Assembly (NCBI RefSeq): GCF_003130705.1
Contig: NZ_CP021354.1
Coordinates: 6,448,001-6,512,000, forward strand
Length of the DNA stretch: 64,000 nt
Direction of reading: 5' to 3'
Source of the DNA: Rhodococcus oxybenzonivorans
GTDB taxonomy: Bacteria > Actinomycetota > Actinomycetes > Mycobacteriales > Mycobacteriaceae
How positions within the stretch are numbered: position 1 is the first letter of the stretch; the number at the start of each line of letters is the position of its first letter. Below, piece after piece: positions 37,019 through 48,288 of the stretch. Under the pieces are notes generated by a model, which saw nothing but the letters and a program-made list of their open reading frames with translations, was not told where the DNA came from and did not search any database. Position numbers and translations under genes: made by a program.

Positions 37019-37918
37019 TCAGGCGATTCCGGACGATGCGGCGGACCGGACGGCGTGTCCCCCGAACTGATTACGCAGTGCCGAAACCGCTTTCATGGCG
37101 GGGGAGTCGTCCTGGCGGGAAGCGAACCGCGCGAACAATGCGGCGGAGATCACCGGCGCGGGAACCGCGTGGGCGATGGCCTCTTCGACGGTCCAACGGC
37201 CTTCACCGGAATCCTCGGTGTAGCCGGAGATCGCGGCCAATTGGGGATCGTCGGACAGGGCCTGCACCAGGAGGTCGAGCAGCCAGGAACGGACCACGGT
37301 GCCCTTGGACCACGCGCGCAGCACGGCGGGCACGTCGACGATGGATTCCTCCGCCGCGAGCAGTTCGTACCCCTCGGCGTAGGCCTGCATCAGTCCGTAT
37401 TCGATACCGTTGTGCACCATCTTCGCGTAGTGGCCGGCGCCAACCGGGCCGACGTGCACAAAGGAATCCTCCCGCGCACCGTCCGGGCGCAGCGCATCGA
37501 AGACCGGCATCAACCGGTCGATGTCGGCCGCGTCGCCGCCGGCCATCAGCGCGTACCCGTTCTCGCGTCCCCACACCCCGCCGGAAACGCCGCAGTCGAG
37601 GTAACAAATGCCGTGTTCGGCAAGAATTTCCGAGTTGAGCGTGTCGTCGGTGAACCGGGAGTTGCCGCCGTCGACGACGACGTCCCCGGGGGCCAGGAGG
37701 CGAGAGAGTTGTCCGATGACCTGACGGGTCGGCGCCCCAGCGGGCACCATCACCCATACCGCGCGGGGAGCGGGAAGTGACTCGACCAACGCTTCGAGGC
37801 TGTCCGCGTCGCTGTCGGCGGAATTCGGATCGTATCCGATTGCCTGTAATCCACGGTCGCGCAGACGCTCCCGCATGTTCAGTCCCATTTTGCCCAGACC
37901 GACCAGTCCCAGTTTCAT
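37019..37918 (-). CDS. gnd: 6-phosphogluconate dehydrogenase, decarboxylating (short, GndA-type)
   Basis: 299 residues starting at MKLGLVGLGKMG (GGGA ribosome site; an ATG 9 bp upstream is possible). Rossmann loop GLVGLGKMGLNM, VWVMVPAG, the signature DGGNSRFTDD, DCGVSGGVWGRENGYALMAGG and the catalytic HNGIEYGLMQAYAEG. The roughly 300-residue size is that of NAD-preferring short 6PGDHs, not the 470-residue NADP type. It converts 6-phosphogluconate to ribulose-5-phosphate and CO2. With zwf, hps and phi nearby it closes a dissimilatory RuMP cycle. A 48-bp element shared with the zwf promoter lies upstream. Confidence 0.92.
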   Translation of the reverse strand: MKLGLVGLGKMGLNMRERLRDRGLQAIGYDPNSADSDADSLEALVESLPAPRAVWVMVPAGAPTRQVIGQLSRLLAPGDVVVDGGNSRFTDDTLNSEILAEHGICYLDCGVSGGVWGRENGYALMAGGDAADIDRLMPVFDALRPDGAREDSFVHVGPVGAGHYAKMVHNGIEYGLMQAYAEGYELLAAEESIVDVPAVLRAWSKGTVVRSWLLDLLVQALSDDPQLAAISGYTEDSGEGRWTVEEAIAHAVPAPVISAALFARFASRQDDSPAMKAVSALRNQFGGHAVRSAASSGIA

Positions 37919-37986
37919 CGTCACCATTCCCGTTTCACATCGGCGATCTTGCCGAGATCTATGTCTACGGGGGAATCGGGTCGACC

Positions 37987-38034
37987 TCACCTGACCGGAC
38001 GGGCAGCCGGCACTGGCCGCTCGGCCAAGTGCAT
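37987..38034. repeat. 48-bp element, copy 1, upstream of gnd
   Basis: Positions 37987-38034 match 40161-40208 at 47 of 48 bases. The core contains TGGCC-GCTC-GGCCA at 38014-38027 within a wider near-palindrome CACTGGCC...GGCCAAGTG. It lies 69-116 bp upstream of the gnd start. It is probably a regulator-binding site, since a diverged copy of its core also precedes phi. Confidence 0.75.
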
Positions 38035-38105
38035 CTTGGCGGCGCTACGCGAAGCCTGAGGTGATCGGCGATTCGGAGCTCGTACTCGTCCCAACGGCGC
38101 CGCGG

Positions 38106-38606
38106 TCATGCCGGGAAGCGTGAGTAGGCGTCCTCGGGGTCGATGGCGGCAAGGACGCGTCTGTTGATTGCGGTCATTTGGCGAAGCTGCGCCTTGGTGA
38201 GGGGGTCGATGACAAGGCGCCGGACCTCGGTGACGTGGCCGGGGGCAGTGTCGACGACTTTGTCCCACCCCGCACTGGTCAAAATCGCCAACGTCGAGCG
38301 ACCGTCGGCGGGGTCGGGTATGCGGCGCACCCACTGCGCCTTCTCGAGCCGCCCGACTGCGTAAGACAACCGCGACAACGATCCTTCGGCCAACTCCGCG
38401 AGTGCGCTCATCCGCAGGGTTCGTTCCGGCGACTCGGACAGTGCGGCCAGGATCTGGTACTCGAAGTGCGACACGCCCGCGTCACGTTTGAGTTGAGCAT
38501 CGAGGGCCGGTTGCAATCGCATGAGGACGCTCGCCAGAGACAACCAGGCCGCGCGCTCGTCCGCTTCCAGCCATCGGGTGTCCGGTTCTTCTTCCTCCGC
38601 GTTCAC
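38106..38606 (-). CDS. MarR-family regulator
   Basis: 166 residues: a winged HTH with FEYQILAALSESPERTLRMSALAE, SLSRLSYAVGRLEKAQWVRR and the wing Asp-Gly-Arg in PDPADGRSTLAILT. It diverges from the extradiol-dioxygenase-like gene with AT-rich operator-like repeats between them. Inference: it represses that gene and itself until an aromatic or quinone ligand binds. Confidence 0.9.
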   Translation of the reverse strand: MNAEEEEPDTRWLEADERAAWLSLASVLMRLQPALDAQLKRDAGVSHFEYQILAALSESPERTLRMSALAELAEGSLSRLSYAVGRLEKAQWVRRIPDPADGRSTLAILTSAGWDKVVDTAPGHVTEVRRLVIDPLTKAQLRQMTAINRRVLAAIDPEDAYSRFPA

Positions 38607-38661
38607 TCGGTCATCGTATCCGGATTGCTACGCGTGGAACGCGAGTAGGGTTGGCTTGACT

Positions 38662-38704
38662 GTTCAAGTAATACTCCGTAGTCTTCATTTGAACATTTAA
38701 GTAA
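38662..38704. promoter_or_regulatory. Operator-like repeats between MarR and dioxygenase genes
   Basis: An AT-rich island in GC-rich DNA holds TTCAAGTAA (38663-38671) and TTTAAGTAA (38696-38704) as direct repeats 33 bp apart, plus a TTCAA...TTGAA inverted pair. It lies between the divergent MarR and dioxygenase genes, where a MarR dimer would bind. Confidence 0.5.
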
Positions 38705-38770
38705 CTGTGGCGCTGGAGCAGTCGCAGGACACGTTCGCCGGAACCCGGATGATGAAAGTGAGGGATATCG

Positions 38771-39649
38771 ATGACCTCCCACGCCCCCGACCCGTTCAAC
38801 CCCGCGGTTCCCGCCGGCGCCTACGACGCCTTGCTCGCACGCGTGTTGCCGCAGGCACGTGGACACAGGGCTTGGGCGGCTGGAGACGGGCCGCTGCCGT
38901 CGTTGTTCGTCAGCCACGGCGCGCCACCTACCCTCGACGACCCGCAGTGGCTCGATGATCTGTTCTCCTGGGCGCAGTCCATGCCGAAGCCCCGCGGGAT
39001 TGTCGTCGTCTCGGCGCACTGGGAGGACGCCCCGGTCGCCATCACCGGTGCGGCAGCGGGTACACCGCTCTACTACGACTTCGGCGGCTTCCATCCGCGT
39101 TACTACACCCTGCAGTACGCCACACCCGACGCCACCCACCTGGCTCGCCGCCTCACGCGAACGCTCAGCCGCACCACCACCGTGCACGAGTTCACCGACC
39201 GCGGTCTCGACCACGGTGCCTTCATACCGCTGATGGCGATGTACCCCGCCGCCGACGTACCGGTCGTGCAGCTCAGCATGCCCAGCCTCGACCCCGAGGC
39301 GCTGCTCAACCTCGGCCAGCGACTGCGCCACCTGCGGGAGGAGGGATTCCTCATCATGGGGTCGGGCTTCATGACGCACAGCTTCGCCGTCCTGCGTGAC
39401 CCCGGGCTGCGAGGACACATCACGGCATTCGACGAGTGGGCCGCCGACGCGCTGAGCTGCGGCGACGTCGACGCCCTGGTCGACTACCGCACCAAGGCGC
39501 CCGGTGCACATGTTGCGCACCCGACGGCCGACCACTTCGTGCCACTCCTACTGACGATGGGCGCCGCCACAGACGTCGGTGCCGCCGCGACCACCGCCAT
39601 CGATCGAATCGCCTGGGGAAACTCCATCCGGTCAATTCAGGTAACTTGA
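38771..39649 (+). CDS. Class III extradiol dioxygenase-family protein (LigB/DODA/YgiD-like)
   Basis: 292 residues. LigB-fold metal ligands are visible: SLFVSHGAPP (His), VVVSAHWED (His) and the late HPTADHFVPLLL with a further His. RGLDHGAFIPL also fits. YgiD/DODA homologues open aromatic diols such as DOPA or bind zinc or iron. Its control by MarR suggests a role in catechol or quinone handling. It separates gnd from zwf and does not obviously belong to the formaldehyde module. Confidence 0.88.
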   Translation: MTSHAPDPFNPAVPAGAYDALLARVLPQARGHRAWAAGDGPLPSLFVSHGAPPTLDDPQWLDDLFSWAQSMPKPRGIVVVSAHWEDAPVAITGAAAGTPLYYDFGGFHPRYYTLQYATPDATHLARRLTRTLSRTTTVHEFTDRGLDHGAFIPLMAMYPAADVPVVQLSMPSLDPEALLNLGQRLRHLREEGFLIMGSGFMTHSFAVLRDPGLRGHITAFDEWAADALSCGDVDALVDYRTKAPGAHVAHPTADHFVPLLLTMGAATDVGAAATTAIDRIAWGNSIRSIQVT

Positions 39650-39665
39650 TCCCGCAGAGGCGGAT

Positions 39666-40056
39666 TCATCGGATCAGTGTTTCGAGGGCGTAGGCCGCGA
39701 TTTCGAGCAGGCAGTTCTTCACCGACGCCTGATCTCGTGCGTCGACAGACAGGATCGGGATGTGAGCGGCGATTGCCAGCGCGGCCCGGATGTCGGTGAT
39801 CGGATAGCGGGGCGCGCCATCGAATTCGTTGACAGCAACGACGAAGGGAAGCCTGCGGGATTCGAAGTAGTCGACGGCTGCGAAGCTGTCGTCGAGGCGG
39901 CGAGTATCGATCAGGACGATCGCACCGACCGCGCCGCGCACGAGGTCGTCCCACATGAACCAGAACCGTTGCTGCCCGGGGGTGCCGAACAGGTAGAGGA
40001 TCAGATCGTCGGCGAGGGTGAGACGTCCGAAATCCATTGCTACGGTGGTTGAGGGA
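39666..40056 (-). pseudogene. 5'-truncated conservon GTPase (CvnD-like)
   Basis: The reading frame gives STTVAMDFGRLTLADDLILY, then LFGTPGQQRFWFMWDDL, GAIVLIDTRRL and VVAVNEFDGA. These are the G3 and G4 regions of the MglA/CvnD-type GTPases that close actinobacterial conservons. The N-terminal P-loop (G1) and about 60 residues before STTVAMDF are missing; homology ends near 40056, where the zwf upstream region begins. No CvnA, B or C partner is present. It is a leftover cut at a rearrangement junction. Confidence 0.82.
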
Positions 40057-40160
40057 CGCCATCGCGCTTTCCGGGGCCGTGTCTGTCGACAGTGAATGGT
40101 GCGAGCCCATCCCCGCCCAGGCTGCGGCCTGACCCCATCGATCCGGCGGCACAACCGCGT

Positions 40161-40208
40161 TCACCTGACCGGACGGGCAGCCAGCACTGGCCGCTCGGCC
40201 AAGTGCAT
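40161..40208. repeat. 48-bp element, copy 2, upstream of zwf
   Basis: Second copy of the element at 37987-38034, with one mismatch at 40183. The dyad TGGCC-GCTC-GGCCA is at 40188-40201. It lies 85-132 bp before the zwf GTG start and is close to the end of the truncated GTPase. Confidence 0.75.
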
Positions 40209-40292
40209 TCCGGCTCGCCGCCTTCGACACTGGTACCCGACGCATTGTCTGAATGCGCCTGTAGTGGAGCGAAAAGACGGAGTGCAGCTGAA

Positions 40293-41909
40293 GTGACCGT
40301 ATCTGAAGTGCAGGAGCGAAACCCGCTGGCAGGCGGCCCAGGCGTTGTCGGCGAGGCATTGATCGGCAACACCGGTCAGGTCGCAGAGCCGGCGTCGATG
40401 GTGATCTTCGGGGTCACCGGTGATCTCTCGCGCAAGAAGCTGATCCCGGCCATCTACGACCTCGCGCACAGTGGTCAGCTGCCGCCGGACTTCGATCTCA
40501 TCGGGTTTGCCCGGAACACCACGGATGTCAAAGCCCGCCTTCGCGAGTCCGTGAGGGAACACGCGCGTACACCGTTCGATCCGGTGGTGTGGGACGAGCT
40601 GGCCGAGCGTATCGACCTGGTACAGGGGTCGTTCGACGACACCGCGGCTTTCGCCCGGCTCGCCGCCCGGCTGGCCGAGCTCGATGTCCGCCGCGGCAAA
40701 CCGGGCAACTACGTGTTCTACCTGTCGGTTTCGCCCTCGGCGTTCGAGGCGGTCTGCGACCAACTTGCGATCACCGGACTGAACCGGACTGCGCACGGCT
40801 GGCGCCGGGTAGTGGTGGAGAAACCGTTCGGGCACGACCTGGCCAGCTCGCAGGCCCTCGGTGCCGCACTGGAGAGGGTGTTTCCGCCGTCGTCGATCTA
40901 CCGCATCGACCACTACCTGGGAAAGGAGACGGTGCAGAACATCCTCGCACTGCGCTTCGCTAACGGGATGTTCGAGCCGTTGTGGAACAATCGGCACATC
41001 GACCATGTGCAGATCACCATGGCCGAGAGTGTCGGAGTGGCCGGGCGTGCCGGGTACTACGACGGTGTCGGTGCCGCCCGCGATGTCATCCAGAATCACC
41101 TGCTGCAACTCTTGGCGTTGATCGCGATGGAAGAACCGGTCGCGTTCGACGCCGACAGCATCGCCGCCGAGAAGATCAAGGTCCTCTCTGCCACCGAGCT
41201 CCTCGGCCCACTGGCGGAGACCTCGGCTCGCGGCCAGTACGGTGCGGGTATCGAGAACGGTGTTCCCGTAGCAGGATTGGTTGACGAGGCGGGATTCCCC
41301 GCCGACTCGGCGACCGAAACCTTCGCGGCACTGACGGTCGGTGTCGCGACCCGCCGATGGGCCGGCGTTCCGTTCTTCATCCGTACCGGAAAACGCCTCG
41401 CTCGGCGGACGACTGAGGTTGCAGTGACCTTCAGACCGCCCGCTCACGGTTCACCGGCCGCGCGAGCTGCTGCGGTGTCCAATGTGCTCGTCTTCCGGGT
41501 ACAACCGGACGACGGCATCGAACTCCACATCGGCGCCAAGCGCCCCGGCGACGGCATGCACATTCAGCCGGTCAGCCTCGGGATGGATTTCCGGTCGGTG
41601 TTCGACCCGGCCCCGGAGGCCTACGAACGGCTGATCTGCGACGTGCTGCGTGGAGACGCCACACTCTTTCCTCGCCGGGAAGAGGTCGAATGGTCCTGGC
41701 GGGTCATCGATCCCCTTCTCGACTATTGGGCCGGTGTCGGTCGGCCGGACAACTATCTCTCCGGGACGTCCGGCCCGGAGTCGGCGGATCGGATGCTCAG
41801 CCGGTCCGGCCGTGCGTGGCGGTCGCTCCGACCCGATAGGGCAGGGAGGCTCGGCGAGGTGGGACCGATCGAGGGGTTCGGTCCCACCTCGCTAGCGGAC
41901 AGAAGCTGA
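40293..41909 (+). CDS. zwf: Glucose-6-phosphate 1-dehydrogenase
   Basis: 538 residues. The GTG at 40293 follows a GGAG site; longer in-frame extensions would cross the conserved element. N-terminal Rossmann loop VIFGVTGDLSRKKLIPAIYD, active-site RIDHYLGKETVQNILALRFAN and EKPFGHDLASSQ. It makes 6-phosphoglucono-lactone and NAD(P)H from glucose-6-phosphate. The C-terminus runs about 30 residues past the usual end with an RSGRAWRSLRP tail. In the RuMP context it supplies oxidative flux with gnd. A strong bidirectional terminator follows. Confidence 0.95.
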   Translation: MTVSEVQERNPLAGGPGVVGEALIGNTGQVAEPASMVIFGVTGDLSRKKLIPAIYDLAHSGQLPPDFDLIGFARNTTDVKARLRESVREHARTPFDPVVWDELAERIDLVQGSFDDTAAFARLAARLAELDVRRGKPGNYVFYLSVSPSAFEAVCDQLAITGLNRTAHGWRRVVVEKPFGHDLASSQALGAALERVFPPSSIYRIDHYLGKETVQNILALRFANGMFEPLWNNRHIDHVQITMAESVGVAGRAGYYDGVGAARDVIQNHLLQLLALIAMEEPVAFDADSIAAEKIKVLSATELLGPLAETSARGQYGAGIENGVPVAGLVDEAGFPADSATETFAALTVGVATRRWAGVPFFIRTGKRLARRTTEVAVTFRPPAHGSPAARAAAVSNVLVFRVQPDDGIELHIGAKRPGDGMHIQPVSLGMDFRSVFDPAPEAYERLICDVLRGDATLFPRREEVEWSWRVIDPLLDYWAGVGRPDNYLSGTSGPESADRMLSRSGRAWRSLRPDRAGRLGEVGPIEGFGPTSLADRS

Positions 41910-41958
41910 TCCAGTCTTGGACACAGGCACACTGCAGCCGACACCGCACCATCAATAG

Positions 41959-41996
41959 CGAAGGGCCCCAAACACTTTTGTGTTCGGGGCCCTTCG
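41959..41996. terminator. Strong bidirectional terminator between zwf and hps
   Basis: Arms CGAAGGGCCCC (41959-41969) and GGGGCCCTTCG (41986-41996), with an inner AACAC-TTTT-GTGTT stem. It lies between the convergent zwf and hps genes. Confidence 0.88.
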
Positions 41997-42010
41997 CGAC
42001 TGGATGATGA

Positions 42011-42640
42011 CTACTTGGTGAGGGCGTCCTTGAGCGCCTTCGCGGCCGCGGCCGGGTCCTCGGCGCTGTAGATGGCGCCGCCGGCGACGGCGACGTCGGC
42101 ACCGGCGTCACGGACGGCGGCGATGGTGTCGACCTTCACACCACCGGCGACGGAGAACGGGACACCGGCGATCTTGCCGTCGTCGAGGAGGGTCTGGATG
42201 GAATATCCGGGCTGGGCCTGCTCGTCGAGACCGGCGTGAATCTCGACGAACGCGACACCGAGCTTGGCGATCTCACGGGCGCGCTCGACACGGTTCTCGA
42301 CGCCGATCAGGTCCGCGACGACCTTCTTCCCGTGCTTCTGACCCGCTTCGACCGCACCCTTGATGGTGGCATCACCGGCGGCACCGAGGACGGTGACCAG
42401 GTCGGCGCCGGCAGAGAACGCCAGGTCGGCCTCGAGAAAGCCGGCGTCGGCGGTCTTGAGGTCGGCGAAGACCTCCTTGTCCGGGTGCGCCGCCTTGATC
42501 GCGCTGATGGCACTGAGGCCGGCGCTCTTGATCAGCGGGGTGCCGAGTTCGATGATGTCGACGTACGGGGCCACCTTGTGGGTCAGCGCCAGCGCGTCAG
42601 CAGTGGTGAGCAGATCGACTGCAACCTGCAGCTTCGTCAT
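42011..42640 (-). CDS. hps: 3-hexulose-6-phosphate synthase
   Basis: 209 residues, a TIM-barrel of the OMP-decarboxylase suprafamily. MTKLQVAVDLLTTADAL, IELGTPLIKSAG, VFADLKTADAGFLEADLAF (metal-binding DxKxxD-like), VEIHAGLDEQAQPG and VAGGVKVDTIAAVRDAGADVAVAGGAIYSA are the HPS signatures. It condenses formaldehyde with ribulose-5-phosphate to hexulose-6-phosphate, the entry step of the RuMP cycle. It is downstream of phi in one operon (45-bp gap) and meets zwf tail to tail. Confidence 0.94.
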   Translation of the reverse strand: MTKLQVAVDLLTTADALALTHKVAPYVDIIELGTPLIKSAGLSAISAIKAAHPDKEVFADLKTADAGFLEADLAFSAGADLVTVLGAAGDATIKGAVEAGQKHGKKVVADLIGVENRVERAREIAKLGVAFVEIHAGLDEQAQPGYSIQTLLDDGKIAGVPFSVAGGVKVDTIAAVRDAGADVAVAGGAIYSAEDPAAAAKALKDALTK

Positions 42641-42685
42641 GTGTTTCTCCTGTTATCTATCTCGGGTGGGGTTGGGGGTTTCGGG

Positions 42686-43267
42686 TCAGCCGATGTTGGC
42701 GTGGCGTTCCCACAGCCGCTCGGCGGTCTGGTCTTCGTTGTCCCACAGCGCCTGGAACAGTGCGTCGAACGCGAGGAGCACGGACTGCTCGAACAGGCTG
42801 CCCGCGTATTGGCGGGTGATAGTCGCGCTGTGGTCCTGCTTGTCGGCCGCCGGCAAGACCAGCACCTCGTCGGCACGCCGGGCGAGCGGCGAGTCGGATG
42901 CGGTGGTGACGGCCAGGAGCGAGGCCCCCACCTTCTTCGCGGTGTCGGCGGCGCCGACCACCGATGCGGTAGTACCCGACCCTGACACGGCGATCAGTAC
43001 GTCACCGGTGCCGATCGCGGGGGCGGTGACCTCACCGGCGACGTGCACGCGCAGGCCGAGGTGCATCAGCCGCATGGCTGCCATCTGCACGGCCAGGCCG
43101 CTGCGTCCGTTGCCGATCACGAACACCGCCCGAGCGGAGGTGATCAGCGAGCCGGCGCGGTCCCATTGTTCCGCAGCAACGGAATTGAGCAGCCGCTCGT
43201 TCTCGGCGAGCACGATGCGGCGCCCGTCACTGAACCGTGTGCGTGTCTGCTCGACGGTGACGGTCAT
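42686..43267 (-). CDS. phi: 6-phospho-3-hexuloisomerase
   Basis: 193 residues from the ATG 43267, which has an AGGAGG ribosome site. SIS-domain isomerase with FVIGNGRSGLAVQMAAMRLMH, DVLIAVSGSGTTASVV and LLAVTTASDSPLA. It converts 3-hexulose-6-phosphate to fructose-6-phosphate. First gene of the phi-hps operon. The dyad element lies about 90 bp upstream, shared with the divergent LuxR/ATPase regulator. Confidence 0.93.
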   Translation of the reverse strand: MTVTVEQTRTRFSDGRRIVLAENERLLNSVAAEQWDRAGSLITSARAVFVIGNGRSGLAVQMAAMRLMHLGLRVHVAGEVTAPAIGTGDVLIAVSGSGTTASVVGAADTAKKVGASLLAVTTASDSPLARRADEVLVLPAADKQDHSATITRQYAGSLFEQSVLLAFDALFQALWDNEDQTAERLWERHANIG

Positions 43268-43355
43268 GATCCTCCTCGGTGATAGCCGTTCTGTGGTGAA
43301 CTCGACACTGCCAACTACCGCCTGCTTCGACACCCGGCCGCTCGGTGGGTTCGGG

Positions 43356-43375
43356 CTGGCCGATTGGCCAGTGCC
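43356..43375. promoter_or_regulatory. Diverged third copy of the RuMP promoter dyad
   Basis: Read on the minus strand, these 20 bases match 17 of 20 positions of the core in the gnd and zwf elements (38009-38028 and its counterpart). The dyad TGGCC-GATT-GGCCA is at 43357-43370. It sits between phi and the LuxR-type regulator, 90 bp before phi and 37 bp before the regulator start. Confidence 0.65.
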
Positions 43376-43406
43376 CGCCCGCCCCTACCGGCGATACGGT
43401 GGATGC

Positions 43407-44678
43407 GTGGTAAGCACGGAGGACTCTGTTCGGTTGCAGGTCGACCCCTGGGTGGAGATGCGGAAGGTGATCACGGGACCGCTCCCGGACATCGCGACGC
43501 GCTTCTCCCGGTTCCTCGGCCAGTTGTGGCCGCACGAGGCACTGGTCATCTTCACCCGCGAGTGCACGGGGCGTCCCCGCAAAGTAGCCGGTAAACGCGC
43601 CATCGTCGACCGGGTCACCATCGACGAACTCGACGAGATCAAGCAATCCCTCGAACCCGGCGGCGTTTACGACGGCGTCGCCATGCTGGCCGGCGTCCGC
43701 CGCCGAGTGTGGGCCATCCGCGACGTCTGCGACACCCTGCTGGTCCTGGTTCCGCGGCCGTCTGAGACAGGTGCACCCGACCCCGATGAGGTCGCCGCCG
43801 TGTTCGGGATCGTCGCCACGTCGATCCAGCACCAGGTGGCGCAGGCCAGCCCCGACTATCTCGCCGAGTCACGGGCCGCGTCGAGTGAACGTGCCCGCAC
43901 CATTGCCGAATTGACGGAGGTTCACGAGGCGACCCTCTCCTCGATCCTCGGAACCCTGCGCTCGAACGATCTCGACGACCGCCGTTCGCGGATCACCGCC
44001 AGCGAAACAGCCTCGGCCGCGTTGATTTCGCTGCGGTCCGCAAGTGCCGCCGACCGTGCCCTGTCCGAGGAAGCGGTCACCACCGCATTCGCCAAACTGC
44101 ACGGGGAATTGCGACCACTGCTCAAGCACCGTGAGGTCGACGTCGAATACATCGAACCGCCGGCCGACGGCCGTCCACTCCCCGGTGAGGTGGCGCACGC
44201 GGCGCGGGCGATGGTCCGGGCTATCGTCCTGGCATTCCTCGCCCAACCGGTACTGACCAGAATGCGGATCGCGTGGGATTGCGACGGCGACAACGTCCTG
44301 ATCGAGGTCCGCGACCAGGGTCCCGGGATCATCGACCGAAATGCACTGACACGGCAGCTGTCCGGACGCCTGAATACTTTGCGCGGGCGGATTGACATCG
44401 AATCGATCCCCGCGTGGGGGAGCAGAGTGACGCTCACCATTCCGTTGGACCCACCCGCCGCCCGACCCGACGAGCACTTACTCTCCACCCTGAACCCGCG
44501 CGAACTCGAAGTCCTCGCCCACCTCGCGATGGGCAAACGCAACCGCACCATCGCCGAGGAACTCGGAATCAGCCAGAGCACCATCAAGTTCCACGTCGCC
44601 GGCGTGCTCAAGAAACTCGACGTCGCCAACCGTGGAGAGGCCGGGGCCATTGCAGCGCGGGCCGGCATCGTGCCGTAG
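43407..44678 (+). CDS. Regulator with histidine-kinase-like ATPase and LuxR HTH
   Basis: 423 residues from GTG 43407. An N-terminal sensor-like region (about residues 1-165) has no clear assignment. A DHp-like helix contains a candidate His in ELTEVHEATLSSILGTL (about residue 175). An HATPase_c domain (about 285-350) shows VLIEVRDQGPGI and the G2 box WGSRVTLTIPL, and a LuxR HTH follows (about 360-415: LNPRELEVLAHLAMGKRNRT, ISQSTIKFHVAGVLKKLDV). So kinase-like ATPase and DNA-binding output share one soluble chain. It is divergent from phi-hps and is the natural candidate to bind the shared dyads. Confidence 0.82.
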   Translation: MVSTEDSVRLQVDPWVEMRKVITGPLPDIATRFSRFLGQLWPHEALVIFTRECTGRPRKVAGKRAIVDRVTIDELDEIKQSLEPGGVYDGVAMLAGVRRRVWAIRDVCDTLLVLVPRPSETGAPDPDEVAAVFGIVATSIQHQVAQASPDYLAESRAASSERARTIAELTEVHEATLSSILGTLRSNDLDDRRSRITASETASAALISLRSASAADRALSEEAVTTAFAKLHGELRPLLKHREVDVEYIEPPADGRPLPGEVAHAARAMVRAIVLAFLAQPVLTRMRIAWDCDGDNVLIEVRDQGPGIIDRNALTRQLSGRLNTLRGRIDIESIPAWGSRVTLTIPLDPPAARPDEHLLSTLNPRELEVLAHLAMGKRNRTIAEELGISQSTIKFHVAGVLKKLDVANRGEAGAIAARAGIVP

Positions 44679-45608: not shown

Positions 45609-46820
45609 TCAGGCAAACGTGCGGGTGACCTGGTCGGTAAGATTGTCGCCGAGTGGGTCGTGCCATGTTGTCCAGGTGTCGGGGCCGAGTTCGATCTCGG
45701 TGGTGGTCAGCAGGCACGCGTCGAGTTGCTGACGCAGTGTGTCGGGGTCAATTTCTTGACCGATGAAAACCAGTTCTTGCCGGCAGTCACCAACTGGCTC
45801 TTCCCATTTGTCGAGTATTCCCGTGCGGCGGTAATCGTCACTAGGCCAGTAGGACTCGGGTAGAAATTTCCACCACCGTCCGATGTAGCCGTGTCGGATC
45901 AGGTGGCCGGCCTGGGAGATGCTGCCGATCTCGGTGAATCGGCTCGCGTTCCAGTAGTAACCTTTGGCGCGCAGGAGACGCCCGTTGGCCCATTCGCGGG
46001 TGAGGAACTGGTGTAGCCGCCCGGGGTGGAAGGGGGCTCGTTCACGGTAGACGACGGAGCTGATTCCGTATTCCTCCGTCTCGGGGGTGTGTTGGCCCTG
46101 TAATTCTTGGAGCCATCCGGGGGCCTGGGCGGCCTTCTCCAAGGAGAACAGACCGGTGTCCAGAATGGTTTCGAGTGGGATCTGGCCGTGGGACATCGAC
46201 TGTATGCGCGCAGTGGGATTGAGTGAGCGCAGGACCGCGGTCAGTTCGGTCAGGTGCTCTGCTGTGACGAGGTCGGACTTGCTGACCAGAATGACATCGG
46301 CGAATTCGATCTGATCGACCAGCAGGTCGGAGATGTCGCGTTCGTCGTCTGGTGCATCGGCCTCGACGCGGCCACCGGTCTGGTAATCGTAGAGGAAGCT
46401 GTGGGCGTCGACGACGGTCACCATGGTGTCCAGGCGGGCGACATCTGCCAGCGCGTGTCCGTCGGTGTCGATGAAGGTGAACGTTTCAGCGACTGGTAGC
46501 GGCTCGGAAATACCGGACGATTCGATCAGGAGGTAGTCGAATCGTCCATCGGCTGCCAGTGCACTGACTTCCGCGAGAAGGTCCTCGCGAAGGGTGCAGC
46601 AGATGCAGCCGTTGGTCATCTCGACGAGCTTCTCTTGTGAGCGGCTCAGTGAGATCTCCCGTTCGACTTCGGCGCTGTCGATGTTGATCTCGCTCATGTC
46701 GTTGACGATGACGGCCACCCGCCTGCCTTCACGGTTGCGCAAGATTTGGTTGAGGAGCGTGGTTTTCCCGGCGCCGAGAAATCCTGACAGCACGGTCACG
46801 GGAAGTCGTGTGTCGGCCAT
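45609..46820 (-). CDS. Nitrile hydratase activator, CobW/P47K-family GTPase
   Basis: 403 residues. P-loop [16 protein letters not shown] at residue 12, the metal motif [12 protein letters not shown] near residue 71, [13 protein letters not shown] (NKxD-like) and a CobW C-terminal domain. Known as P47K or Nha3, such proteins deliver iron to Fe-type nitrile hydratase and are needed for active enzyme. It is the last gene of the operon, directly after the beta subunit. Confidence 0.92.
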
Positions 46821-46935
46821 TGCGTTGAATCCTTCCGAGAGGTCGGGGAGGTCCCGGCTGTGGATGTGGCGGCGGCGGGCACGCGAACTGGGGATGCGTA
46901 CCCGCCGACGCAGTTGGTGACAGTGTGGGAGCGGG

Positions 46936-47574
46936 TCAGGCTGCCGGTTCGAGGTAACCCTCGAATAGGTCGACTACGACGCTGCCGGCGTCGGTGTCGT
47001 CACCGAAGAGGTCCTCGGCCGCGAACTGGACGTGGTAGGTCGGTTCCGCCCCGGCGTCGTTGCGGCCGTGGCCGATGGCGTCGGGGAAGGGCCACTGGTC
47101 GCCGGTGCGGTGCGTGACGGTCCCGACCCGGCCGCGGCAGTAGGCCGGCATGCGGATGTGCCCCGGGACGTACTCGTCGCGCACCCGGACACGTTGCCCG
47201 ACCTCGAAGGTGATGGTGTCGGTGCGGGCCGGACGTCCCTCCGACTCGGCCGGCCGGGACAGCGGGAACGGGCCCCCGGCAAGCGCTTCGAGTTCCTCGT
47301 GGGTGAGGATGCCCTTTTCGACCATGAGGGTGGCAACGCCGATGGCGTACCTCTCGTAATAGGGCGTCATCATGTAGTGGCGGGGTTCCATCCGCTCGAC
47401 GACGTAGCGGACCTCGTCGACACTGAAGGCCCCCAGCTCCGCCACTCCGAGGAAGAACAGGCTGTAGGGCAGGTGTTCCCAGTCGGCGTGGAAGGTGGGA
47501 CCGATATCGGCGTTGACGGTGTGGGGCACCTTGCCGAACCCTTGAACACCGGCGAGATCGTGTACTCCATCCAT
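46936..47574 (-). CDS. nthB: Nitrile hydratase beta subunit
   Basis: 212 residues from the ATG 47574, the normal size for Fe-type beta subunits. N-terminus [37 protein letters not shown], then [19 protein letters not shown] and an SH3-like C-terminal domain with [13 protein letters not shown]. Its two arginines in the ERM/YYER segments approach the alpha-subunit metal site in known structures. It follows nthA by 26 bp; both are needed for the heterodimer that hydrates nitriles to amides. Confidence 0.95.
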
Positions 47575-47600
47575 GGGTTTATCTCCTATGATTCGGTGGA

Positions 47601-48224
47601 TCAGTTGGCCGGGACCTGCGGGACTGCGACCCCGATCAGGCAGTCCTTGGTGACGATCTGCTGTAGTTGCTCCTGGGTCCAGCCTTCGGTGCCGGCGGGC
47701 CGTTGGGGGAGCACGATGTAGCGGGTCTCGGCGGTGGTGTCGTACACCCGGATCTCGACATCCTCGGCGATGTCGGTACCCATCTCGGACAGCACTTTTC
47801 GAGGTTCGCGGACGACGCGGGCACGGTACTCGAAGCTCTTGTACCAGGTCGGCGGCAACCCGAGGATGGGCCAGGCGGTGCAGGAGCAGAGGGAGCAGAC
47901 AATCACGTTCTTGAGGGTGGGGGTGTCCTCGAGCGCGACGATGTATTCGCCCTGCGGTCCCAGATAACCGTACTGGTCCACGGCCGCGGTGCCGTCGGTG
48001 AGGAGCAGTTCGCGGAACTCCGGGTCGGTCCAGGCCCGCGCGACGAGTTCGGCGCCGCGCTTCGGGCTGAAGTCCTCCTCGAAGGTCTTCTTCCACGCTT
48101 CGGTGTAGCCCTCGGGGACCACGCCCTTCCCGTCGAGCGCACGGAACAGTGCCCACGCGCGATCCGACGCCGGCGCTTGAGCTGGTGCGGCATTGTCTGG
48201 TGTGTGTTCGATCGTTGAGGTCAT
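47601..48224 (-). CDS. nthA: Nitrile hydratase alpha subunit, Fe-type
   Basis: 207 residues from ATG 48224 (a GTG 9 bp upstream is possible). The metal-binding loop reads CSLCSC at residues 110-115, the iron-type motif (cobalt-type enzymes have CTLCSC). Cys113 and Cys115 would become sulfinic and sulfenic acids. The protein closely follows Rhodococcus N-771 alpha in length and sequence as I recall it. It hydrates nitriles made by the aldoxime dehydratase encoded upstream. Iron-type enzymes can be light-sensitive through nitrosylation. Confidence 0.96.
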   Translation of the reverse strand: MTSTIEHTPDNAAPAQAPASDRAWALFRALDGKGVVPEGYTEAWKKTFEEDFSPKRGAELVARAWTDPEFRELLLTDGTAAVDQYGYLGPQGEYIVALEDTPTLKNVIVCSLCSCTAWPILGLPPTWYKSFEYRARVVREPRKVLSEMGTDIAEDVEIRVYDTTAETRYIVLPQRPAGTEGWTQEQLQQIVTKDCLIGVAVPQVPAN

Positions 48225-48288
48225 TGTTTCCACTTTCTGTAGGGGGCTGGTACGTACGAAGTGGGAATTTGGTGTGTCGGGAAGCGCT

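Follow-up and report, generated by a model that had tools for sequence, protein, structure and literature searches.

The window analyzed here, a 64,000-nucleotide stretch of the Rhodococcus oxybenzonivorans genome (contig NZ_CP021354.1, positions 6,448,001 to 6,512,000), carries hps, phi, zwf and gnd together, each scoring above its NCBIfam cut-off. These four genes make up the set for a dissimilatory ribulose monophosphate (RuMP) cycle. They are accompanied by a gene for a LuxR-type regulator that begins at position 43407 (Table 1). The promoter regions of these genes share an element made of two dyads. We consider it probable that this element is the operator of the 43407 regulator family, which would activate, in response to formaldehyde, both the RuMP genes and mscR, the gene for S-(hydroxymethyl)mycothiol dehydrogenase. 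Our computation shows the operator with its fixed geometry, the genes that it targets, and that it occurs together with the regulator family. The DNA-side evidence for a real, conserved operator is strong, and a regulon spanning two formaldehyde routes is probable.

An earlier note on this DNA had described a 48-bp element ahead of gnd and zwf, and a TGGCC-N4-GGCCA dyad at these two places and between phi and the regulator gene. Both descriptions were borne out: the two 48-bp copies differ at one position (47/48, 98% identity) and the dyad starts at 38014, 40188 and 43357. It occurs 3 times in the window versus 0.10 expected (0 of 100 shuffles reached 3), and 12 times in the 8.0 Mb of the genome, with 3 of the sites inside this 5.4 kb. 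We nevertheless rejected TGGCC-N4-GGCCA as the operator because it is unspecific; of its 12 genomic sites, the 9 outside this 5.4 kb all lack a partner dyad 22 bp off (best 6/14). What the gnd/zwf and phi/regulator elements have in common is a pair of 16-bp dyads like CTGGCCG-NN-CGGCCAG, with centers 22 bp apart. Each dyad consists of two inverted heptamers separated by a 2-bp gap (7-2-7), a layout conserved at RuMP and mscR promoters. A two-dyad pattern built from these sites, allowing up to 3 mismatches, found three matches in the genome, the three window sites, and none in a reversed control; a looser pattern matched only at the same three places (reversed control, 1 per strand). The note had also read the phi/regulator site as an inverted copy of the core. 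An inverted match does exist (22 nt, 86% complementary), as a by-product of dyad symmetry; the inverted reading was rejected because an ungapped alignment in direct orientation covers both dyads.

A lone conserved dyad (CTGGCCGTTCGGCCAT in L028, at about 1502-1517) was seen in five genomes of the genus (loci L023, L024, L028, L029 and L031). It was set aside as an operator because no partner dyad was found at these loci and none of 13 query proteins (RuMP, insert, regulator, mscR/fdh) was found in the surrounding 3 kb. Its neighbors on either side in L028 are genes that we take to encode an oxidase of DadA type and a PucR-type regulator.

Dyad pairs were scored on a scale with a maximum of 28, and significance was taken as the number of 2000 dinucleotide shuffles scoring as well, for 12 regions picked as divergent or gnd promoters. 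No shuffle equaled the pairs of the window (gnd, 25; phi-regulator, 23), Nocardia L021 (25), Mycolicibacterium L017 (phi-regulator, 23; gnd, 24), the mscR-regulator regions of genomes G280 (25) and G091 (20), or L019 (19). One shuffle did as well as the gnd-zwf region of L018 (21) and three as well as L051 (19); the other two regions are taken up below. Judged by eye, the mscR-regulator region of L056 (1264-1503) has an apparent third dyad-like sequence ahead of its pair.

Actinobacterial -10 elements are conserved as xAnnnT. We measured the distance from the center of the nearer dyad to such a hexamer over offsets 20-45, without imposing the hexamer. It lies at offset 31 in 12/12 phi, 9/9 zwf, 8/12 phi-linked regulator and 4/4 mscR promoters, and at any other offset it occurs in at most 2 promoters per group. 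If the transcription start is assumed to lie seven bases past the hexamer, each divergent pair has, on either side, its nearer dyad centered at -43.5, the position that class II activators occupy. A NarL dimer binds 7-2-7 sites, which lie at -40 to -49 of napF and -38 to -47 of yeaR, according to the accessible part of one source (PMC4549865). Repression through these sites, relieved by formaldehyde, seems improbable. The regulator gene does carry a site of its own close to its start, as many autorepressor genes do. Against this, in several promoter types the dyads are found ahead of the -10, at class II activator distance, and not over the start, an argument that is not a strong one, since it takes only the -10 hexamer into account.

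The composite element was found in 8 of 28 genomes of the genus. The RuMP-type regulator (at least 77% identity) is present in the same eight, as is hps (seven matches above the cut-off; the eighth, in G016, is a partial match of 169.9 bits). In the family-wide search the composite pattern matched 17 of 301 genomes: nine RuMP carriers, G280, where the match (2 mismatches) lies between mscR and a regulator gene and was kept, and seven others, whose single 3-mismatch matches were treated as chance because a reversed control gave 8 matches in 7 genomes. Loci were obtained for 30 of the 43 gnd matches in the genus. The gnd genes beside zwf, together with the window's own, all score 20-25 (10/10), and 19 paralogous gnd loci (below 75% identity), among them another copy in this genome, score 13-18.

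Outside the RuMP loci, mscR often adjoins genes for the regulator's more distant relatives. Among 20 non-RuMP family loci taken with 1.5-kb flanks (L045-L064), 11 hold mscR, 3 hold fdhD and 6 hold neither. In R. oxybenzonivorans itself, a paralog with 68% identity to the 43407 regulator adjoins fdhD, a formate dehydrogenase-like gene and mscR. This mscR scores 704 bits (cut-off 513), is the sole gene above that cut-off among 64 matches in the genome, and has a promoter with a dyad pair of 20/28 and TAGTGT at offset 31. In other genera, too, mscR is preceded by this operator. We then asked which geometry best fits 15 mscR promoters (16 found, one near-duplicate removed) on a grid of 390 spacing and offset combinations. 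Spacing 22 with offset 31, the values read from the RuMP promoters, was the best of all 390 (mean 18.87, versus a grid mean of 11.29 with a standard deviation of 0.99; z 8.4), and was again best for the 11 promoters that are not divergent with a regulator gene (18.36; z 7.9). As xAnnnT was required at the tested offset both in this grid and in the mscR promoter scores, independent evidence for the hexamer comes only from the free offset test. A divergent version of the pair, starting CTGTAC, is common to five mscR promoters of one genus, g9 (L048, L049, L050, L052 and L061), and L051, which bears the same genus label, carries a different version. These variants suggest that the site may drift together with its regulator.

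Matrices trained on promoters of other genomes (36 RuMP and 14 mscR) were scanned over 2.0 of the 8.0 Mb of this genome (3,999,736 strand positions). With all 50 promoters, the window operators scored 32.6-44.7 and mscR 28.1, and the next match 13.7. The mscR-only matrix ranked mscR (26.4), phi (26.0), gnd (17.4) and zwf (16.9) highest, followed by the other readings of the gnd/zwf operators (16.0 and 10.4) and a first unrelated match at 10.0. Recovery of mscR by this matrix is partly due to a close ortholog in the training set (L109, 95% protein identity); that of phi, gnd and zwf does not stem from one. The RuMP-only matrix gave 37.5-49.1 for the window operators.

All 15 mscR promoters from regulator-holding loci score 16-25, versus 6-13 for 30 of 30 from genomes without the regulator family, five of these belonging to the window's own genus. 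The RuMP-only matrix separates the two sets without overlap (-4.7 to 40.4 with the regulator, -33.7 to -11.1 without); because the promoters are related, they are less independent than the nominal p of about 3e-8 implies. The regulator-negative set consisted of 36 genomes, 20 listed as negative and 16 inferred to be so by their absence from 77 listed positives; 34 of them had mscR, and loci were obtained for 30. This separation bears on the idea that a different NarL-type protein, for instance a two-component response regulator, binds the operator and that the neighboring regulator was merely co-inherited. NarL itself recognizes 7-2-7 sites (accessible part of PMC4549865), other NarL-type proteins must presumably exist in this genome, and linkage alone can explain co-occurrence inside a RuMP island. 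On the other side stand the low scores of all 30 mscR promoters from family-free genomes and an operator that, in separate lineages, has the regulator gene on one side and phi or mscR on the other. MnoR, the methanol response regulator of Mycobacterium smegmatis, has a single perfect site, at mno, as far as the accessible part of PMC11303327 describes. We judge binding by such a different NarL-type protein to be quite improbable.

The paralog offers a closer competitor. The window operators might be served mainly by the protein encoded beside fdhD and mscR, or by both proteins interchangeably; this is unlikely in our view, and deserves more weight than the other alternatives. The putative recognition helices of the two proteins agree at 14 of 16 residues, and the paralog adjoins an mscR operon that carries the same operator. 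The distribution across the genus speaks for the 43407 regulator: window operators occur only in the 8 of 28 genomes with a RuMP-type ortholog, and 15 of the other 20 have a more distant family member, a coincidence that may, again, also reflect linkage.

A tree of 32 family members, which was rooted at the midpoint for drawing, groups the nine RuMP-linked proteins with one unlinked protein; this fork has support of 93/88, is not starred, and the RuMP label needs two changes on the tree. Proteins linked to mscR fall on both sides of the drawn root, and some branches are long. The tree suggests that control of mscR may be the older function and that the operator was later taken over for hps-phi and gnd-zwf.

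Several observations weigh against activation of both pathways through one operator by the 43407 regulator. Two paralogs in this genome are candidates for the sites. Two of the 12 scored pairs are weak, L044 (score 18, equaled by 11 of 2000 shuffles) and L059 (17, by 37); L044 belongs to G042, a RuMP carrier outside the genus with phi, hps and a regulator of 76% identity, which the composite pattern misses. There is no clear pair upstream of the fdhD-adjacent paralog (L045-L047, L065) or of non-divergent family members (scores 14-18), and therefore not every family member is autoregulated through such a pair. No gnd promoter has xAnnnT at offset 31 (0/9); precisely there, all nine carry TAGACA or TACACA. 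The xAnnnT hexamer is also missing at this offset from 4/12 regulator promoters linked to phi and from 4/4 linked to mscR. One gnd gene of 81% identity (L146, G005 C4) lacks the operator pair (score 14). This gene and hps are neighbors on one strand, so that it may be transcribed from the phi promoter, as if it had moved into the phi-hps unit. In the matrix scans, which took in a quarter of the genome, the regulator-facing reading of operator 3 reached only 8.8 with the mscR-only matrix, below several unrelated matches, and the RuMP-only matrix placed this genome's own mscR site only eighth (12.3), after one unrelated match of 14.3. Finally, many of the promoters are phylogenetically related, so that the counts are not independent, and all 15 mscR promoters with a regulator were reached through regulator loci rather than drawn at random.

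The regulator has a C-terminal GerE helix-turn-helix (HTH) domain of NarL/LuxR type (residues about 357-420), preceded by a helix and a degenerate ATPase domain like those of DesK, DosS and VraS (residues about 145-350), which has the GHKL ATPase fold. Its N-terminus looks like a GAF domain; a Foldseek search with this domain gave no match at E 0.001 or better. Pfam scans found no receiver domain, and no HxlR/DUF24 winged helix was present among matches at E 0.001, which were to GerE and two sigma-70 region 4 models; HATPase_c stayed under its cut-off (21.3 versus 26.4). Residue T170, invariant in 32/32 family members, occupies what we take to be the place of the phospho-acceptor His in DesK/DosS-type kinases. 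The 12 members viewed have the motifs [EQ][LM]T and [PS]GE.A, and the N-box Asn is gone; the regulator thus has neither the phospho-acceptor His nor the N-box Asn of HPK7-type kinases, and its kinase core is probably, to judge from these residues, a pseudokinase. H173, three residues past T170, is nearly invariant (Gln in L056) and might still allow phosphorylation. The motif ECTGRPRK, in 32/32 members, contains C53, the one Cys that is invariant in the family, and K59, the one Lys conserved anywhere but in the HTH. It is tempting to speculate, as a rather doubtful extension, that the protein is itself a formaldehyde sensor of a new kind, in which formaldehyde would bridge C53 and K59 of the ECTGRPRK loop within the GAF-like domain and the dead kinase core would relay the signal to the HTH, and that it is a general switch of mycothiol-using actinobacteria, acting on mscR first and on the RuMP genes later. 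If this were true, C53 and K59 would have reached the Cys-Lys chemistry of HxlR independently.

The presence of two 48-bp copies appears to have a separate history. In L014 (R. wratislaviensis), L015 (R. jostii), L018 (R. koreensis), L020 (Rhodococcus sp. JCM 9791), L025, L026 and L030, the divergent genes gnd and zwf are separated by about 200 bp of intergenic DNA with a single copy of the element; L025 looks like the L015 genome over again. In the window a 2126-bp segment separates the two genes, with one copy on either side. Because homology with the relatives runs left of copy 1 and right of copy 2, ending at the repeat on both sides, and because the relatives have a single copy, an insertion duplicated one ancestral operator shared by gnd and zwf, as far as sequence comparison can tell. 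The duplications that flank insertion sequences are usually much shorter than this 48-bp repeat. The named genes of the insert (marR, a LigB-type gene and a fragment of an ATP-binding protein) include no transposase, and the whole insert was not found in the other 27 genomes of the genus that were searched, which yielded only partial homologs of its genes. The fragment, from a conserved ATP/GTP-binding protein, lies at the edge of the insert, and homologous DNA stops at about 40049. That the two copies flank the 2.1-kb insert exactly could be taken to mean that the repeat is a mere by-product of insertion without regulatory meaning. We give this almost no credence, as the single-copy element is kept in relatives and the two-dyad layout recurs at phi/regulator and mscR. 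The caveat that the repeat might be only a recent duplication is thus right about the copy number, which is derived, and wrong about the element itself, which is conserved. The description of the transcription units as dispersed does not extend to relatives such as L015, in which the RuMP units are contiguous; in L014 a distance of 4.7 kb separates zwf from hps. In the draft contig of L020, phi and zwf are broken across reading frames (tblastn pieces), possibly a sequencing artefact or decay.

Table 1. Features of the RuMP region; positions are those of the 64,000-nt window.
Feature	Position	Strand	Remarks
gnd, short-form 6-phosphogluconate dehydrogenase	37019..37918	-	TIGR00872 333 bits (cut-off 297); NF007161 409 (cut-off 271)
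gnd -10-like hexamer TAGACA	37962..37967	-	31 bp from center of nearer dyad
Operator copy 1 (48-bp repeat)	37987..38034		dyads 37991-38006 and 38013-38028
Insert splitting ancestral gnd-zwf intergenic region	38035..40160		absent between gnd and zwf in the seven relatives' loci named in the text
marR, inside insert	38106..38606	-	Pfam
ligB-type gene, inside insert	38771..39649	+	Pfam
5'-truncated ATP-binding protein fragment, inside insert	39666..40154	-	Pfam match starts at position 67 in a profile of 240
Operator copy 2 (48-bp repeat)	40161..40208		dyads 40165-40180 and 40187-40202
zwf -10-like hexamer GACACT	40226..40231	+	xAnnnT at offset 31
zwf, glucose-6-phosphate dehydrogenase	40293..41909	+	TIGR00871 588 bits (cut-off 401)
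hps, 3-hexulose-6-phosphate synthase	42011..42640	-	TIGR03128 252 bits (cut-off 200)
phi, 6-phospho-3-hexuloisomerase	42686..43267	-	TIGR03127 229 bits (cut-off 160)
phi -10-like hexamer CAGTGT	43305..43310	-	xAnnnT at offset 31
Operator 3, phi/regulator intergenic	43334..43371		dyads 43334-43349 and 43356-43371
Regulator-gene -10-like hexamer TACGGT	43395..43400	+	xAnnnT at offset 31
Regulator	43407..44678	+	GAF-like N-terminus, degenerate DesK/DosS/VraS-like ATPase domain, NarL/LuxR HTH
ECTGRPRK, regulator codons 52-59	43560..43583	+	invariant in 32/32 aligned family members

Gnd may use either NAD or NADP: TIGR00872 describes NAD-dependent enzymes, NF007161 is named NADP-dependent, and both models match. 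Open reading frames past the regulator gene (45609-48233, minus strand) presumably encode a CobW/P47K-type activator and nitrile hydratase subunits (VCSLCSC motif), as named from their translations.

Taken together, these results are consistent with the following mechanism. Each 16-bp dyad would take one dimer of the NarL-type HTH, and the 22-bp distance between dyads would place two dimers on the same face of the DNA. In the gnd-zwf and phi-regulator regions each dyad would serve the promoter on its own side, and the regulator, acting as a class II activator, would turn on hps-phi, zwf, gnd and its own gene. With Pgi, the products of hps-phi, zwf and gnd would form the dissimilatory RuMP cycle. 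The 43407 regulator or its 68% paralog would also activate mscR, and thereby mycothiol-dependent formaldehyde oxidation. As the signal, the GAF-like domain would probably sense formaldehyde or its thiol adduct. Direct binding, activation as opposed to repression, and the inducer are all points that we infer from the DNA and protein comparisons above. The proposal of the earlier note, that the regulator acts through the dyads on gnd, zwf and hps/phi, appears well supported by comparison among genomes, with amendments: two dyads in tandem, and not TGGCC-N4-GGCCA, form the operator, and the regulon also appears to reach mscR, outside the window.

Actinobacteria that degrade methoxylated lignin compounds release formaldehyde. 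If the proposed mechanism is correct, one regulator family with an exact operator and promoter geometry would predict targets across genera, two formaldehyde routes would be tied to one switch, and formaldehyde control in soil actinobacteria would be directly testable. It would also provide a promoter-sensor pair for lignin-converting Rhodococcus. In the accessible parts of the reports, mycothiol-dependent formaldehyde genes are up-regulated on acetovanillone in Rhodococcus GD02 (PMC9618137), a mycothiol (MSH)-dependent formaldehyde enzyme rises on lignin (PMC10662689), and one-carbon gene clusters are upregulated in R. opacus with no regulator named (PMC9582017). The open-licence literature, as far as its text was accessible, yielded no report of a regulator of hps/phi or mscR in Rhodococcus, and no description of this system under formaldehyde combined with LuxR, hexulose or mycothiol.

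Among known systems, the closest in function is that of Bacillus, where the formaldehyde-responsive activator HxlR controls the hps-phi pair hxlAB (PMC8879981, accessible part) and senses formaldehyde through a Cys11-Lys13 methylene bridge (PMC7835342, accessible part). On the proposal made here, Rhodococcus would likewise have an hps-phi pair under a formaldehyde-responsive activator. HxlR, however, is a winged-helix protein of the MarR/DUF24 type, whereas in the regulator described here a GAF-like domain and a kinase-like core precede an HTH of NarL type, and its predicted targets add zwf, gnd and mscR. A second precedent, for actinobacterial control of one-carbon metabolism, is MnoSR of M. 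smegmatis, a true kinase/regulator pair that acts on mno; the accessible part of PMC11303327 does not describe MscR as a target and gives no support to MnoSR as the controlling system. With NarL, VraR, LiaR and DosR the regulator shares the HTH sequence family and fold, and its putative sites have the 7-2-7 layout known from NarL. It differs from these response regulators in carrying a kinase-like module ahead of the HTH on a single polypeptide, with no receiver domain detected by Pfam, and from the kinases DesK, VraS and DosS in having T170 at what we take to be the His position, no N-box Asn and a sub-threshold HATPase_c match. The kinds of parts are thus all known, and their combination appears to be new within the literature searched.

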